Shown here one piece after another: positions 39,077 to 44,949 of a DNA stretch of 64,000 nucleotides. The stretch comes from Alphaproteobacteria bacterium. Its GTDB lineage: Bacteria > Pseudomonadota > Alphaproteobacteria > TMED109. Location: NCBI GenBank assembly GCA_022825705.1, contig JAJDWH010000009.1, forward strand, positions 1 to 64,000, read 5' to 3'. The translations under genes and the position numbers were made by a program. The first letter of the stretch is position 1. Each line of letters opens with the position of its first letter. The notes under the pieces are model-generated. The model made no database searches. It saw only the letters and a list, made by a program, of their open reading frames with translations, and was not told where the DNA came from.

Positions 39077-39085
39077 CAGCCCGTG

Positions 39086-39931
39086 ATGTACCGGATCCGG
39101 GTGCAGGTGCCAGCCGATGCACGGATCACGGTCGAAGAGATGCTGCTGGGCATCACCGAGGCATCCAGTACCGTGGTCGAAGGCGGCGAGGCGGAGGTTC
39201 TGGGCTACTCGCACCAACCGCCCGACACGCGCGCATTTGAACAGGCGTTGGAGGGTGTCGGAATCCCGACCCGGATCTGCCTGCTTGAACAGGTGCCGGC
39301 TGTCGACTGGGTTACCCGTGGACTGGCCCGCCTGCCGCCCGTACGGGCCGGGCGGTTCGTGCTGCGGGGGCGCCACCTGCCCGCCTGCTCGTCCGCACGC
39401 AATGACATTTGCATTGACGCCGGTCCGGCATTCGGCACCGGCCATCACCCGACGACCGCGACCATGATCGAGATGTTGGCTCACCTCGCGCAACGCCGCT
39501 TTCGACCGCAATTGGCGCTGGACATGGGTACCGGCGCCGGCGCTCTTGCCATCGTCATGGCCCATTTGTGGCGCTGTCCCGTGCTGGCCGCGGACAACGA
39601 CCCGGCCGCCGTCCAGTGCGCGCGCGAAAACGTAGTCCGGAACCGGGTAGCGCGCTGGGTCGATGTCGTCGAAGTCGACGGGTACGACGCGATCGGCAGC
39701 GTTTTCGACGTCGTTGCCGCCAACCTTTTTGCCCACCCGCTTCGGGTGATGGCGCCGGCACTGGCCCGCAGCCTGTCGACGAGGGGCTACGCCGCGCTGT
39801 CCGGCCTGCTCGTGCGACAGCGACTACCGGTACTGCGAGCGCACGTGGACCAAGGTTTGACTGTACGGCGTACCGTGCGCCGCGACGACTGGCTCACGTT
39901 CCTCCTGGCTCGCTCCCACGCCCCACGCTGA
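39086..39931 (+). CDS. prmA: ribosomal protein L11 methyltransferase PrmA
   Basis: 281 residues from ATG 39086 (GTG 39083 also possible). SAM motif I is LDMGTGAGALAIVMA, motif II ADNDPAAVQCARENV, and the active-site region NLFAHPLRVMAPALARSLSTRGYAALSGLL. The segment GPAFGTGHHPTTATMIEML is diagnostic of PrmA-type enzymes. It trimethylates ribosomal protein L11. N-terminal domain is fairly divergent. It follows the helicase closely, on the same strand, as in several alphaproteobacteria. Confidence 0.9.
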   Translation: MYRIRVQVPADARITVEEMLLGITEASSTVVEGGEAEVLGYSHQPPDTRAFEQALEGVGIPTRICLLEQVPAVDWVTRGLARLPPVRAGRFVLRGRHLPACSSARNDICIDAGPAFGTGHHPTTATMIEMLAHLAQRRFRPQLALDMGTGAGALAIVMAHLWRCPVLAADNDPAAVQCARENVVRNRVARWVDVVEVDGYDAIGSVFDVVAANLFAHPLRVMAPALARSLSTRGYAALSGLLVRQRLPVLRAHVDQGLTVRRTVRRDDWLTFLLARSHAPR

Positions 39932-39953: not shown

Positions 39954-40613
39954 CTAGGTCTCCGCCCGCTCCGGCACCAACGACGGCGCTTCGTCTCCGA
40001 ACGCCAGCGCCAGCAACAGATTGATCTGATAACGGGGAATGAGAAGGATCCGGTTGGGGCGCCGCTCGAGCACGGTGTAGTAGGCGTATCCGGTGACCAA
40101 CAGGTCGCCGACCCGCAATATGGCCAGCGGATCGCCGTTGAGGCGATCACGAAACGTCAGCAGGATGTCAGGCGTCTCGAGGCCGTATTCCACCATTGGC
40201 CGATCCGGCTTGATCGCCCGGTCGGCCAACATTCTTGCGGTAATCTCGAACTGCTCGGCGATCTGCACTGCATCCGGCGAGTCGGACCCTGCGCCGCCAT
40301 GGTGATGCGTGTGCCCGTCGGCACCATGGGCATGGTCATGGGCATGGCTTGCCTGAATCCAGCGTCCGTCAGGGTCGCGTTCAAAGTCGACATGATGGCT
40401 CTTCCAGGCCACCGTAACGGAGCCGATTTCCGGCTCTCCGAACGCGAACACCGGGAACCTGCCCTCGGGCAGGTCGTCCAATCCCTCCGGCCCGTGATCG
40501 TGCCCTTCGTGCGGATCGGGCGGAGTTCGTTCCGTCTGCACCAGTGCCACGACCGCAACCAGCAGCAGCACCCAGACGAGAAACGTTCGACGGCTGAATG
40601 CCAGTCGGTTCAC
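39954..40613 (-). CDS. DUF4340-type protein with His-rich stretches, Gld-like ABC system
   Basis: 219 residues from GTG 40613, chosen for the GTGA overlap with the upstream gene and the GGAGG before it. One N-terminal membrane helix (FLVWVLLLVAVVALV), then an extracytoplasmic part with His clusters at about residues 35-40 (HEGHDH) and 90-105 (HAHDHAHGADGHTHHH), followed by the DUF4340 body (ILLTFRDRLNGDPLAILRVGDLLVTGYAYYTVLERRPNRILLIP). DUF4340 proteins accompany GldA/F/G-type ABC systems of unknown substrate. The His clusters point to metal binding. Confidence 0.75.
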   Translation of the reverse strand: MNRLAFSRRTFLVWVLLLVAVVALVQTERTPPDPHEGHDHGPEGLDDLPEGRFPVFAFGEPEIGSVTVAWKSHHVDFERDPDGRWIQASHAHDHAHGADGHTHHHGGAGSDSPDAVQIAEQFEITARMLADRAIKPDRPMVEYGLETPDILLTFRDRLNGDPLAILRVGDLLVTGYAYYTVLERRPNRILLIPRYQINLLLALAFGDEAPSLVPERAET

Positions 40614-42172
40614 CGCCTCCGCCACCAGATCACGGTACCGGCGAGCGCCAACAGGGCCGGCCACAGGACCACCGCGAAGAAGAACGTCCCCTTCATCTGC
40701 CGGTTGGTCATGTTGATCTCGGGAAGATCATAGGACCGGGGCTCGAGACCGATCAGATTTTCCTGTTCTGCCAGATAGTTGACAATGTTCAGAAAAAGAT
40801 TCCCGTTGCCCAGGAGATGGAAGAAGGAGTTCTGCGCGAAATCAGCGTCGCCTGCGACCACAATGCGTGATCGCAACGCGTCCGTCTCTTCGGTTACATC
40901 GCCCAGACGCCGTGACGAGATCGCAACCAGTGTGAGCGGACCGGTTTGCTCTTCCGGATCCCGCTCGGCTCTGATCTGGTCGGTCTCCGCCCAGGCGGCC
41001 GGCGAGGAATTCACCGCAGCAATGACCGCTGTTCCGGGAACCCTCTCCGGCGTCGGCGCAAACGGCCGTACCCCAGGGTAGAACGTCAGGGCCAGATCCC
41101 GCGTGATCTTGTGATGATTGTAGGACGTCACCGTCGGTGTCGAGACGTCCGCCCAAAAGTACCTGGCATCGTCGATCACGATCGCGTCCATGGCGACGAT
41201 ACCCCAGTCACGGAGCAACGGCTCCAGGCCCGTATCGACGAACGGGTCAAGCATGAAGAACGCGTTGTTTCCTTCCTCCAACCACGCGCGGATCGCTTCG
41301 ACCTCTCCTTGCAGCAACCCCGTCTTGGGACCCGCGACCACGAGAACAGAACAAGGTTCGAGGGTTTCCGTGGCGCCGGCGAGGGTTACCTTGACAACCT
41401 CGTAATTGATCGTCTCCAGCGCGTTTCGCGCTTTCGCCATCCCGTGCCGCTCGTGCAGGACGAACTTGGCCCCGAGGCCGTGCGAATGGCCCGGTGCCCC
41501 CTCCTGGTGATCGTGCGACTCGAGACTGAACGGATCCGCTTCCACATGGCCGTCCAGGAAGCAGATCTTCTGTTTGACGCCGAGCGACACTCGAAGAACG
41601 CCGTTGGCAATGTCGGTTTCCGTCGAACCGTGCACGAAGTGCCGCCGCCCCTCGCTCTCGAGCACCGCCGTGCCTGCAAACTGCACGCCTGCCAGCCGCG
41701 CTGCGGCCGGGTTGAGGTTCGGATTGTGGAACTCGACCGTGACCTGCGGCGTCGCGTCGGCGAACAGTTCGTAGAGTTCGACCGTGGTGCGCAGGGCAGA
41801 GTCGTAGAAAAACGTAATGTGCACCGGCGCGGACAGCCGTGAGAGCATGTCAGCGGTTTGTTGGGACAGCGAGTGAGATCCCTGAGTTGTGAGATCGAAA
41901 CGCAGGGGAACGCGGGACGCAAAAGCCCCTATGACCACCAGAACCGCACACGCGCCCACCGCAAACAGGGCGATTTCGCCGCGGCGTCGCGTCATTCCGG
42001 CCCGCAGCTGGATCCTGAGGAAATAGCCACCAACGACCGCGAGCGAGAGCCCTCCCAGCCCGAGCAACAGGCTCCCGGGGTTCCACTCGTTGGCAATCAG
42101 CCGGATGGCAAGGGCTCCAACGAGGGCTGCCACAGCGACCAGCAGCACCAGACCCGCGTGAAAGGCCCTCAC
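40610..42172 (-). CDS. GldG-family ABC-associated membrane protein
   Basis: 520 residues. Two N-terminal membrane segments, a third (IALFAVGACAVLVVIGAFAS), a large extracytoplasmic GldG/intraflagellar-transport-like domain (RFDLTTQGSHSLSQQTADML, ITFFYDSALRTTVELYELF, KQKICFLDGHVEADP), and a C-terminal helix (FFFAVVLWPALLALAGTVIWW). A His-rich insertion (HDHQEGAPGHSHG, about 220-231, and HERHG near 240) sits just after the family's FL-x-GH motif. Such proteins work with the ABC ATPase and permease encoded upstream; the substrate is unknown. Overlaps the next gene by 4 bases. Confidence 0.82.
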   Translation of the reverse strand: MRAFHAGLVLLVAVAALVGALAIRLIANEWNPGSLLLGLGGLSLAVVGGYFLRIQLRAGMTRRRGEIALFAVGACAVLVVIGAFASRVPLRFDLTTQGSHSLSQQTADMLSRLSAPVHITFFYDSALRTTVELYELFADATPQVTVEFHNPNLNPAAARLAGVQFAGTAVLESEGRRHFVHGSTETDIANGVLRVSLGVKQKICFLDGHVEADPFSLESHDHQEGAPGHSHGLGAKFVLHERHGMAKARNALETINYEVVKVTLAGATETLEPCSVLVVAGPKTGLLQGEVEAIRAWLEEGNNAFFMLDPFVDTGLEPLLRDWGIVAMDAIVIDDARYFWADVSTPTVTSYNHHKITRDLALTFYPGVRPFAPTPERVPGTAVIAAVNSSPAAWAETDQIRAERDPEEQTGPLTLVAISSRRLGDVTEETDALRSRIVVAGDADFAQNSFFHLLGNGNLFLNIVNYLAEQENLIGLEPRSYDLPEINMTNRQMKGTFFFAVVLWPALLALAGTVIWWRRR

Positions 42173-42173
42173 C

Positions 42174-42881
42174 TCAGCGCCTCCACTCCAGGGCGCAGAC
42201 GTTCAATATCAGCGCTCCGGCCGCGAAGAGCACGAATAGCGCCAGCGACTCGAACCTGGCCAATCCCTCGATGAATTCACCGAAGTGCCAAGCGAAGGAG
42301 ACGTAGAGAAAGAGCTCTCGCAGGAATTGCACGGTCTGGAACGACTGCAAATGCCCCACGAACCAAAAACCCAGGAGAATCGAAACCGTCACCAACGCCG
42401 CCACGATTTGATTCTCGGTCAGAGACGAGCAGAGCTGCCCGATCGCCAAGCAGGCACTGCCCAGCAACAGAAAGCCCAGATAGCCCGAGAAAATCGTGCT
42501 GGTCTCCGGCGCTCCGAACAGGTACAGCGGTACCAGGTCAAGTACCGTTCCGAACGCCATGAGGACGAGCATCGTGAGCGCCCCGAGGTACTTGCCCAGG
42601 ACAACCTGCCACGGCGCGAGCGGCAGCGTAGCCAACAGCTCGTAGGTGCCCGCGCTGTACTCGGTTGCAAACAGGCGCATCGACACGACCGGCAACAGAA
42701 TGACTGCCAGCAGGCCCATGTTCTGGAAGGTCTCCCGCATGGTTGCGAGACCGGAAACGAACAGGTTGTACGAAAAGAAATATCCCGTCCCGAGCAGGAA
42801 TACCGCCAAGACGAAATACGCGATCGGCGACCGGAAATAGAGTTTGATCTCCTTGCCGTAGACCGCAAGCACTCCGCTCAT
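42174..42881 (-). CDS. ABC-2 type permease (GldF-like)
   Basis: 235 residues with six membrane segments (SPIAYFVLAVFLLGTGYFFSYN, GLLAVILLPVVSMRLFATEYSAGTYELLATLP, ALTMLVLMAFGTVLDLVPLYLF, and others). The ATEYSAGTYELLATLPLAPWQVVLGKYLGAL segment is the ABC-2/NosY-GldF signature. Its ATG overlaps the TGA of the ATPase gene (ATGA), and the GldG-like gene begins 1 base after its stop. Channel part of the transporter. Confidence 0.88.
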   Translation of the reverse strand: MSGVLAVYGKEIKLYFRSPIAYFVLAVFLLGTGYFFSYNLFVSGLATMRETFQNMGLLAVILLPVVSMRLFATEYSAGTYELLATLPLAPWQVVLGKYLGALTMLVLMAFGTVLDLVPLYLFGAPETSTIFSGYLGFLLLGSACLAIGQLCSSLTENQIVAALVTVSILLGFWFVGHLQSFQTVQFLRELFLYVSFAWHFGEFIEGLARFESLALFVLFAAGALILNVCALEWRR

Positions 42882-43819
42882 GCTGCCCCCTCGACGTAAT
42901 GCAGGAACACGTCCTCCAGCGACGGGTCGTGCCGCCGCAGTGCCAGCAGGTCCCAGTCGCGGGCCACCGCCCTGGCAATGGCCGCCTCGACGTTGCCGCT
43001 CGAGTCGACGGCACAGTTGACCGCGTACGGGACCTGCCGATCATCCACGTCGACCCGGATCACGCCGCTGATATCGAGCAGCCGCTCCTTGAGGTCGGAC
43101 GGTTCGCCAGCCGCCACCTGCAGCTCAACCCGGTTGGCGCGTCCCACCGCCGTCGCCAACCCCGCCGGCGAATCGATGGCAAGCAGTTGACCGTGATGCA
43201 GGATCGCGATCCGGTCACAAAGTAGGGTCACCTCCGGCAGGATGTGCGTACTCAGCAGGACGGATTGGTCGTGGCCGAACGACCGGATGACTTCGCGGGT
43301 TTCCGAAATCTGTCCGGGGTCCAGTCCCGACGTCGGCTCATCGAGGAGCAGGACTTCAGGTTGTCCGAGCAGCGCTTGGGCCAAGCCGAGTCGCTGGCGA
43401 TACCCCTTCGACAACTTGTAGACCTCGCTTCGGGCAACCGCCTCGAGACGGCAGGCGGAAACGACGCGATCCAGCTGGCTGGCGGTGTCGGCACGGCGCA
43501 CCCGCTTGGCGCGGGCCACAAAGTGAAGGTAGCCCAGGACGTCGAAGCTCTCGTAGAGTGCGGGACGCTCCGGTGCGTACCCGACCGCCGCCGCGCTTGC
43601 CGTGGGCGAACTGATGACGTCGTGACCGGCGACGGTCACCTGGCCGGAGGTCGGCGCGAGGTAGCCGGCGATCATCCGGAGGGTGGTGGTCTTGCCGGCG
43701 CCATTCGGGCCCAGGAAACCCACGATCTCGCCTTGGCCCACGTGAAACGACACACGGTCGACGACCGTTCGTTCGCCATAGGTCTTGGTCAGGCTATGAA
43801 GTTCGACCGGATAGGACAC
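42878..43819 (-). CDS. ABC transporter ATP-binding protein (GldA/NosF-like)
   Basis: 313 residues. Walker A is GPNGAGKT (37-44), signature region KLSKGYRQRLGLAQALL (degenerate from LSGGQ, common in this subfamily), Walker B LLLDEPTSGLDP, and STHILPEVTLLCDRIAILHHG. It has the C-terminal domain typical of ABC-2 exporters of the GldA/NosF/NatA group. First gene of a four-gene operon (ATPase, permease, GldG-like, DUF4340). Confidence 0.92.
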   Translation of the reverse strand: MSYPVELHSLTKTYGERTVVDRVSFHVGQGEIVGFLGPNGAGKTTTLRMIAGYLAPTSGQVTVAGHDVISSPTASAAAVGYAPERPALYESFDVLGYLHFVARAKRVRRADTASQLDRVVSACRLEAVARSEVYKLSKGYRQRLGLAQALLGQPEVLLLDEPTSGLDPGQISETREVIRSFGHDQSVLLSTHILPEVTLLCDRIAILHHGQLLAIDSPAGLATAVGRANRVELQVAAGEPSDLKERLLDISGVIRVDVDDRQVPYAVNCAVDSSGNVEAAIARAVARDWDLLALRRHDPSLEDVFLHYVEGAA

Positions 43820-43887
43820 GGGGAATCAATGAGGCCGGTGGTCACGGCGCGCGGCGCGCCATGCGACCACGGGGACCAACGCTGGAA

Positions 43888-43928
43888 CAAAAAAAGAAGA
43901 GGCCCTCCCCACGGATGGGGAGAGCCTC
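43888..43928 (-). terminator. rho-independent terminator of the exported lactonase gene
   Basis: On the minus strand GAGGCTCTCCCC and GGGGAGGGCCTC form a 12-base stem with one mispair around a short loop, followed by TTCTTTTTTT. It lies 24 bases after the lactonase stop codon. Confidence 0.9.
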
Positions 43929-43951
43929 ACTCGATGGTAGATCGCTGGACG

Positions 43952-44815
43952 TCAGTCGTACCAGTTCTCGCCCATGCTGTCGTACTGTCTGATGGAGTGA
44001 CCGAACCAGAGCTTCCCGTTCTGGATGTCGGCCATCATCTTCAGCCGGTTAACCGAGTCGAAGTAGTCCAGGATGCTGTAGTTCAGGCCAGCCGGGTGCC
44101 CTTCGAGGTTCTCTTCCATCCAGATTGCGTCCTGGGAGAGAACGACCGTGCCGGTGTTGGCCAGCTCGAGGCGCACCGACTGGTGCCCCAGCGTGTGGCC
44201 CGGCGTGCTCAGGACCAGGACGGTGCCGTCGCCGAACAGATCGTAGTCACCCTCGATGGCGTGGTAGTTGAACTCGCGGGCCTCGTCATAGTCGCCAACC
44301 ACGTGGGCGCCGCTCGGGCGCTGGAACTTCTCCGGCCACCAAGCCTGGTAAAGCTCACGTTTCTGAATCACGTGAATCGCGTCCGGGAACATCTCGATGT
44401 TGCCGATGTGGTCAAGGTGCGAGTGCGAGGTGATGACGACCTTCACGTCGCTCGTACTGTACCCGAGCTTCTCAAGCTGCTGGTCGATGACATCGCCTCT
44501 GGTCTGGCTGGGCAGCAGGAAATCGCAGTTCCCCTGGGCCCAGTGCGAGGCGCAGTTGCCGTCGGAAATCGCCACGTTATTCCCGGTGTCGTAAACGACC
44601 AGCCCCTTGGGATGATCAATCACCCACATGTTGATGGGGATCAGAATGTCGCGGGCTTCCGGATACGTCGGGATCAAACCCTGAATATTGAATGGGCCGA
44701 ACTTGCCGCTAGCAGTCCAATAGACTTTCACGGTTCCGTGTGCGTCTGCGACTGCACTTCCTGCCGCAAAGCCACACACTGCCAGGACGGCCAACGCCGA
44801 AGCGATTCGTCTCAT
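43952..44815 (-). CDS. exported metallo-beta-lactamase-fold lactonase (AHL lactonase type)
   Basis: 287 residues with a signal peptide (about 1-25, ending AVADA). The binuclear zinc site is HSHLDH (His131, His133, Asp135, His136), followed by STPGHTLGHQS and a late FGHS. The N-terminal part (VYDTGNN) and the overall layout match AiiA/AttM-type N-acyl-homoserine-lactone lactonases. If so it would hydrolyse quorum-sensing lactones in the periplasm, which is unusual since many such enzymes are cytosolic. Other lactone substrates are possible. It has its own promoter and terminator and no operon partners. Confidence 0.82.
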   Translation of the reverse strand: MRRIASALAVLAVCGFAAGSAVADAHGTVKVYWTASGKFGPFNIQGLIPTYPEARDILIPINMWVIDHPKGLVVYDTGNNVAISDGNCASHWAQGNCDFLLPSQTRGDVIDQQLEKLGYSTSDVKVVITSHSHLDHIGNIEMFPDAIHVIQKRELYQAWWPEKFQRPSGAHVVGDYDEAREFNYHAIEGDYDLFGDGTVLVLSTPGHTLGHQSVRLELANTGTVVLSQDAIWMEENLEGHPAGLNYSILDYFDSVNRLKMMADIQNGKLWFGHSIRQYDSMGENWYD

Positions 44816-44921
44816 AGAAAATCTCCCTCAGTGGGCTGCCGGCATCTGCATCCACCAGACACGGCGTCGAACGCCTGCGTCTGCCGGTCGCACAATTCGA
44901 ATCCTGCGCCCGCTGTTCACA

Positions 44922-44949
44922 TCATTAAAGGCAGACGGATATCTGTCAA
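44922..44949 (-). promoter_or_regulatory. candidate promoter of the exported lactonase gene
   Basis: On the minus strand TTGACA (44949-44944), 16-base spacer, TAATGA (44927-44922), 107 bases before the start codon. The -10 match is weak; the -35 is perfect. Confidence 0.5.

Follow-up and report, generated by a model that had tools for sequence, protein, structure and literature searches.

The window analysed here is a stretch of 64,000 nucleotides (nt) of contig JAJDWH010000009.1, part of a 3.5 Mb draft genome in 55 contigs whose closest named relatives are metagenome-assembled genomes (MAGs) labelled 'Alphaproteobacteria bacterium' and 'Rhodospirillales bacterium'. On its minus strand, five genes (39954-44815) are transcribed in the order MBL, gldA, gldF, gldG and DUF4340, encoding a probably secreted protein of the metallo-beta-lactamase (MBL) fold, the three subunits of a Gld-type ATP-binding cassette (ABC) transporter and a small DUF4340-like partner. 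Since the GldG-like protein exceeds its Pfam cut-off and is encoded beside an ABC-2 permease and an ATPase, the system belongs to the Gld-type ABC family in the wide sense. The likely start of the DUF4340-like gene is a GTG at 40613, the last bases of which overlap the gldG stop, giving a protein of 219 amino acids and not 236. Elements with TTGAC, similar to the sigma-70-like promoter of the window cassette, were also seen by eye 5' of related cassettes. Statements on topology rest on the helices of a structure model and on reading by eye, and coding starts are approximate in several relatives.

Table 1. Genes and sequence elements of the Gld-type cassette in the window.
Feature	Position	Strand	Basis
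Secreted MBL-fold protein, AHL-lactonase-like	43952..44815	-	Pfam Lactamase_B 2.9e-14; AHL-lactonase PDB relatives
Sigma-70-like promoter TTGACA-17-AATGAT, 5' of the MBL gene	44921..44949	-	10/12 consensus positions match
Terminator-like hairpin and T run in the MBL-gldA gap	43899..43928	-	13-pair stem
GldA-like ABC ATPase	42878..43819	-	ABC_tran (PF00005) 4.1e-29, 102.4 bits (cut-off 25)
GldF-like ABC-2 permease	42174..42881	-	PF12679 1.1e-06, 28.5 bits (cut-off 27.2)
GldG-like membrane protein with a large, probably periplasmic part	40610..42172	-	ABC_transp_aux (PF09822) 9.3e-23, 81.3 bits (cut-off 34.7)
HxHxE-x4-HxH motif HDHQEGAPGHSH, GldG residues 220-231	41480..41515	-	conservation across relatives
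DUF4340-like single-pass partner	39954..40613	-	listed open reading frame begins at 40664; label by homology
HEGHDH of the DUF4340-like protein, shortly past the likely membrane segment	40494..40511	-	direct reading
His-rich tract HAHDHAHGADGHTHHH of the DUF4340-like protein, 16 residues, 8 His	40299..40346	-	direct reading

The initial annotation had drawn attention to histidine-rich stretches in two of these proteins, and they are present as it described them: HEGHDH and a 16-residue cluster in the DUF4340-like protein, and a stretch soon after FLDGH in the GldG-like protein, where HDHQEGAPGHSH starts ten residues past that sequence. The latter stretch was compared across 31 cassette GldGs, the identity of which to the window protein falls to about 33%. 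The pattern H-x-H-x-E-x4-H-x-H was found in 30 of them, in the segment after C-F-x-x-[GD]-H-x-E. Residue by residue, H220, H222, H229, H231 and E218 are each kept in 30/31, and E224, H209 and the cysteines C204 and C274 in all 31. In 3516 of 20,000 shuffles of the protein an equal density of His is reached, so composition by itself would not make the cluster remarkable; a chance origin, which shuffling alone would allow, was set aside on conservation. The motif occurs in none of 30 ordinary GldG loci, and the ordinary relatives mostly carry G-H-G-E followed by a shorter, His-poor loop. The sole cassette GldG without it, at locus L119 (genome G836), has L, E, R and R in place of the four His, and retains E224, H209 and H243 despite the loss of all four. 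In an AlphaFold model made with eight sequences (mean predicted local distance difference test score 55.5), the motif lies inside a low-confidence stretch (216-243), between a strand at 201-206 and a helix at 240-254. A PDB sequence search with the GldG alignment returned three weak IFT52-type matches and one to YtfQ. The periplasmic part of the window protein would span residues about 90-490, and a homologue in Bradyrhizobium sp. 195 is WP_247973828.1.

A quick maximum-likelihood tree of 64 GldGs, for which the motif was masked, separated 33 ordinary from 31 cassette GldGs across one branch (SH-like approximate likelihood-ratio test, SH-aLRT, 86). The cassette GldGs form two deep clades with support of 100 each: clade A holds the window genus, family f125 and loci L015 and L016, and clade B holds family f67 and Bradyrhizobium. 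The clades join by long branches, which the tree program flagged. On this tree the history of the motif takes two changes, the second being the loss in L119. Because the motif GldGs lie on one side of one branch, the linkage counts that follow reflect long retention and not many independent gains.

The cassette comprises the secreted MBL-fold protein, GldA, GldF, GldG and DUF4340, to which one clade adds a HupE/UreJ-2 permease. An MBL gene lies 5' in every one of the 27 motif loci with readable upstream DNA; the remaining three of the 30 motif loci (L006, L015 and L097) were left out of this count, as their contigs end too early upstream. L119, without the motif, still has the MBL gene upstream with all ligands kept. 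In clade B, HupE/UreJ-2 is found after DUF4340 at all 16 motif loci whose downstream DNA could be read, and L015 in clade A also carries it. Four clade B copies and that of L124 were put to Pfam, and all were HupE_UreJ_2. By a simple pattern, signal cleavage is likely right before His in 14 of 17 HupE rows, and in L071 the same was judged by eye. On the Bradyrhizobium plasmid the six genes run head to tail, annotated as N-acyl homoserine lactonase family, ABC ATPase, permease, Gldg family, DUF4340 and HupE/UreJ; a PDB search with this HupE gave no credible match. At L119, HupE/UreJ-2 is missing after DUF4340 and was not found in the 91% complete genome.

Compared to these cassettes, 30 ordinary GldAFG loci of the same phylum contain no MBL relative and no HupE relative. 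The controls comprise 20 fetched loci and ten earlier ones, among them a second, weakly matching GldG locus of the window genome; Bacteroidota loci are not included. Their flanks extend at least 1.5 kb beyond gldA and at least 5.8 kb beyond gldG, with the exception of L139 (1.3 kb downstream). The second GldG-like system of the window genome (G000:C52:38238-39176, L079) is without the His motif, MBL and HupE in the stretch read. Outside the cassette, a HupE/UreJ-2 match occurs elsewhere in five of the seven window-genus genomes; in one of them (G027:C4:21947-22278) it falls in two separate frames, as if frameshifted.

The DUF4340-like partner presents a different picture. The window protein itself scores below the 25-bit cut-off of PF14238 (13.8 bits, E 0.069), and the label holds because homologues in the same place pass it: L107 (36.1), L071 (27.6), L124 (27.7) and the first copy in L106 (26), with L070 (16.7) and the second copy in L106 (18.1) below. 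BLASTP relates the window protein to that of L107 at 5e-23. Its His cluster is unusual for its composition, an equal density arising in 1 of 20,000 shuffles of the protein. Counted over the aligned part, the best 20 residues hold 6 to 9 His in six of seven window-genus rows and 8 in L107, and moderate numbers were found in L106 (5 and 3, in two tandem copies) and L070 (3); by eye, L015 has four His within 13 residues. In the seventh window-genus row, L014, the protein is split in two frames, of which the 5' piece has 6 His. The tract varies in length between sister species in the window genus. The initial annotation had asked for co-occurrence of both His stretches in homologues, and this was found in clade A only: 17 of 18 clade B GldGs carry the motif beside a His-poor DUF4340, and strict co-occurrence was rejected for that pairing. 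The DUF4340 tract is the labile feature and the GldG motif the fixed one. The frame split in L014 (L014:4316-5139) falls just past the His tract and is either a real frameshift or an assembly error in a repeat-rich stretch. The tandem DUF4340-like genes of L106 (L106:9903-11223) lie 3' of gldG, and both have His clusters.

In the MBL-fold protein, HxHxDH and the further H, D and H metal ligands are invariant in all 28 cassette copies, as expected for the metallo-beta-lactamase fold. The window and Bradyrhizobium copies share 31% identity. The closest solved structures are N-acyl homoserine lactone (AHL) lactonases (best E 1.1e-29 in a PDB sequence search), and by similarity the enzyme would be AHL-lactonase-like. 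Its score is 156 bits, compared to a cut-off of 390 for AttM, and it falls under the cut-off of every lactonase model; for the Bradyrhizobium copy, the best non-self plasmid matches have 35-37% identity. The AHL lactonases AiiA, AttM and GcL are sequence relatives of the enzyme, in which the metal ligands are kept. Unlike these relatives, the cassette enzyme is probably secreted, with an N-terminal signal-like stretch seen by eye in the window protein, and is tied to a Gld-type ABC operon. A hairpin lies in the MBL-gldA gap at all 10 clade A loci examined, with a T run that is clear in eight and weak in L070 and L106. This terminator-like element between MBL and gldA suggests that clade A produces enzyme and transporter at different levels. 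Four clade B loci were looked at: in L071, L072 and L124 the end of one gene reaches or almost reaches into the other, and in L108 the two are about 61 nt apart.

The cassette is rare and patchy among the genomes searched. The GldG gene is present in all seven window-genus genomes, the window's included, at 87-100% identity, and no match was found in the other 21 genomes of the family, which are small, only three of them being at least 90% complete. Further relatives were found in 3 of 9 genomes of the order holding family f125, in 18 of 75 genomes of family f67, on two MAG contigs labelled Pseudomonadota and Burkholderiales, and in 1 of 72,556 plasmid records, from Bradyrhizobium. The order-level search gave the same 28 genomes as the family search. 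In broader samples, any match at all was seen in 28 of 385 genomes of the class, mostly distant, and in 53 of 398 of the phylum; a class search centred on genome G412 matched 34 of 48 genomes at 23-36% identity, most of these places being already in the phylum sample.

Regulation by metal was assessed through Zur-type operators. In genome G771, a perfect TGTTATAGTATAACA was found some 130 nt 5' of the MBL start (L107:6517-6531; G771:C22:16516-16530) and is the only perfect match in the assembly (1.4 Mb, 63% complete). It fits GTTA-5N-TAAC, the form of Zur sites in many proteobacteria (PMC4176598). The single one-mismatch site of G771 is flanked on one side by a FUR-family gene, which ZnuA and ABC-3 genes follow, and on the other by a ZrgA-family gene; cobW has a two-mismatch site upstream. 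In the window genome, the pattern at up to two mismatches was found four times, compared to none for the reversed control, and the four sites include one before a FUR-family/ZnuA cluster, one between a cobW gene and its neighbour, one upstream of a TonB receptor and one at a place without a gene assignment. The initial annotation had proposed a look for metal-responsive regulation, and no metal-responsive operator was found at the window cassette. The HupE/UreJ-2 gene of the window genome is away from the cassette, beside another ZnuA and FUR-family gene. This region, L125 (G000:C32:171000-185348), contains a FecCD permease, a TonB receptor, ZnuA, a FUR-family regulator and HupE/UreJ-2, and looks like a second zinc-uptake locus. 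A one-mismatch Zur-type box without a gene assignment, L174 (G000:C4:284781-284795), is on the window's own contig.

Gld-type transporters are known mostly from gliding bacteria. To our knowledge, it is not settled what GldAFG-type transporters carry or what DUF4340 proteins do. The gliding Bacteroidota have the same three subunits, GldA-GldF-GldG (TIGR03522, TIGR03518 and TIGR03521), encoded in the window in the order A-F-G. In Flavobacterium, GldA, GldF and GldG probably assemble into one ABC transporter (PMC5682007). The window proteins all miss the curated NCBIfam cut-offs for gliding by far (GldA 251.4 against 402.6 bits, GldF 120.6 against 288.5, GldG 50 against 389.85), so a non-gliding setting is unsurprising. 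GldL (TIGR03513), the only other gld gene searched, had no match in the window genome or in any of 14 control genomes. The conserved His motif, the linked MBL gene and the often linked permease gene suggest that this separate version of the Gld-type transporter has a role in metal handling, probably of zinc, and not in movement.

A metal role is supported because the GldG motif is near-invariant, the linked hydrolase has metal ligands, HupE/UreJ-2 is linked in clade B and in L015, and one relative has a Zur box. Computation shows the conservation of the motif, the linkage of the genes, the zinc-type ligands of the enzyme and, in one relative, the Zur-type box; we infer that GldG binds metal, that this metal is zinc, that it is taken up and not exported, and what the enzyme does. 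We give roughly even chances to the reading that genes 39954-44815 represent a conserved envelope cassette, in one of its forms, for the handling of a transition metal (most likely zinc), as a periplasmic acquisition unit on a Gld-type ABC transporter. The metal-related function put forward in the initial annotation is in this way partly supported: it stands on the GldG motif, the partner genes and one Zur box, and falls where it took the two His stretches as one joint feature. The idea has been strengthened, and has moved from the two stretches to the motif and its partner genes.

A mechanism can be proposed on this basis. GldG, kept on the periplasmic side beside the ABC-2 motor of GldA and GldF, would bind a metal ion through its four near-invariant His and Glu. 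In clade A, the single-pass DUF4340 partner would gather the metal through its labile His tract; in clade B, gathering would probably fall to the HupE/UreJ-2 permease, the mature form of which would start with metal-binding His. ATP-driven movement of GldAFG would then free the metal or pass it on for uptake. The secreted lactonase-fold enzyme may contribute to this step, perhaps by opening a lactone that binds metal and so setting the ion free. More tentatively, and short of an even chance, the cassette may represent an undescribed class of envelope metal-acquisition machine, in which an ABC-2 transporter with a four-His GldG works with a metal-freeing lactonase-fold enzyme and the ion is handed to HupE/UreJ-2 or to a His-rich DUF4340. 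No description of the cassette was found in the literature searched, of which the coverage of subscription papers is limited and which does not extend to supplements.

The nearest functional parallel, likened by description, is the Vibrio zinc importer Zrg (ZrgABCDE; ZrgA is PF10986), an unusual ABC importer with an exporter-like (MacB-like) permease and a His-rich periplasmic binding protein (PMC9820375). Unlike Zrg, the cassette has an ABC-2/GldF-like permease, with GldG, DUF4340 and MBL added. The second parallel is with the HupE/UreJ-2 'anglerases', which have an N-terminal His domain; a HupE_UreJ_2 protein is encoded in the cassettes of clade B and in L015, and the window cassette is without one. 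The accessible portion of PMC12537917 does not mention Gld genes for anglerases. If true, the metal reading would give a concrete non-gliding function to a GldAFG-type transporter and would link the recently described anglerases with an ABC transporter. The substrate question also becomes testable in a subfamily whose partner genes are fixed and whose metal-type motif hardly varies.

Several observations weigh against metal acquisition by the cassette. ABC-2 transporters are usually exporters. The DUF4340 of clade B is His-poor, with at most 3 His per 20 residues in 18 of 18 rows, including L119 and the partial L115. Among the 17 clade B loci that could be read, the case of L119 stands alone. 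In the f67 genomes G775 and G803, the motif is kept and no HupE was found, which may mean missing sequence because these genomes are incomplete (67% and 60%) and their cassette contigs are cut. HupE is not adjacent to the cassette at any of six readable window-genus loci, the window's included, or at either of two readable f125 loci, and HupE/UreJ-2 was not found in the window-genus genomes G022 and G023 or in G771 and G772 (63% and 83% complete). As regards Zur, 27 of 28 cassettes examined, among them the window's, are without a Zur-like box (of 300 shuffles, between 103 and 300 gave a match as good as the best one at the cassette), and the window genome has such boxes at other zinc genes though not at its cassette. 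In G771, at up to two mismatches, 8 box matches compare to 6 for the reversed control; because the control is nearly as common, weight can be given only to sites that fit perfectly or almost so, and to where they lie. From the literature, the His-rich loop of V. cholerae ZrgA is dispensable (PMC9820375), and in the anglerase work zinc caused a slight destabilisation (PMC12537917). Zinc is uncertain as the metal because binding of Cu and Ni is what PMC12537917 describes for HupE/UreJ-2 proteins that have an N-terminal His.

The strongest alternative centres on a lactone: the secreted enzyme would open a lactone (a signal, an antibiotic or a nutrient), the Gld-type transporter would move the substrate or product, and the GldG metal site would be structural. 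The enzyme is the most constant neighbour (27/27 readable motif loci), its closest solved relatives are AHL lactonases, and BxdA, from the lactonase family, breaks down a plant compound (PMC11297187). This reading leaves unexplained why clade B and L015 have HupE/UreJ-2, why DUF4340 has His tracts, why G771 has a Zur-type box and why G836 lost the four His together with HupE, and we consider it unlikely. Rather doubtful, in turn, is a metal-delivery unit in which the secreted MBL-fold enzyme, or other metalloenzymes of the periplasm, would receive zinc from GldG and DUF4340. The constant pairing of an enzyme bearing zinc-type ligands with a His-motif GldG would fit such a loader, as would the clade A hairpin between MBL and gldA, which suggests unequal amounts of enzyme and loader; however, the G836 enzyme keeps all its ligands although the GldG His are lost, HupE/UreJ-2 is a permease, and related lactonases are not known to need dedicated loaders.

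Efflux or detoxification of metal by the ABC-2 transporter, with the His tracts as metal sinks, appears very improbable. ABC-2 permeases are commonly exporters, and His-rich periplasmic proteins occur in efflux systems too, but the Zur-type control in G771 points to starvation and not excess, and the linked HupE/UreJ-2 proteins have been proposed as uptake permeases (PMC12537917). Least probable of all is that this is an ordinary Gld-type transporter, acting at the surface or in secretion, whose His-rich loops arose by accident; this would suit the labile DUF4340 tracts and the unexceptional composition of the GldG cluster but not four His near-invariant across two deep clades, beside partner genes not seen at ordinary loci.

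Further genes were noted near cassettes. A PQQ (pyrroloquinoline quinone)-dependent dehydrogenase gene (L107:2178-3953) lies a few kb 5' of the G771 cassette, followed by what by eye is a cytochrome-like gene; a PQQ link was dropped, as none was seen by eye in the other neighbourhoods read. A CobW/COG0523 GTPase gene (L108:1136-2167) is near the cassette in an f67 genome. In the window, the DUF4340 gene faces a convergent PrmA-like methyltransferase gene on the plus strand (39083-39931), which scores 189.5 bits where the model sets its cut-off at 244.

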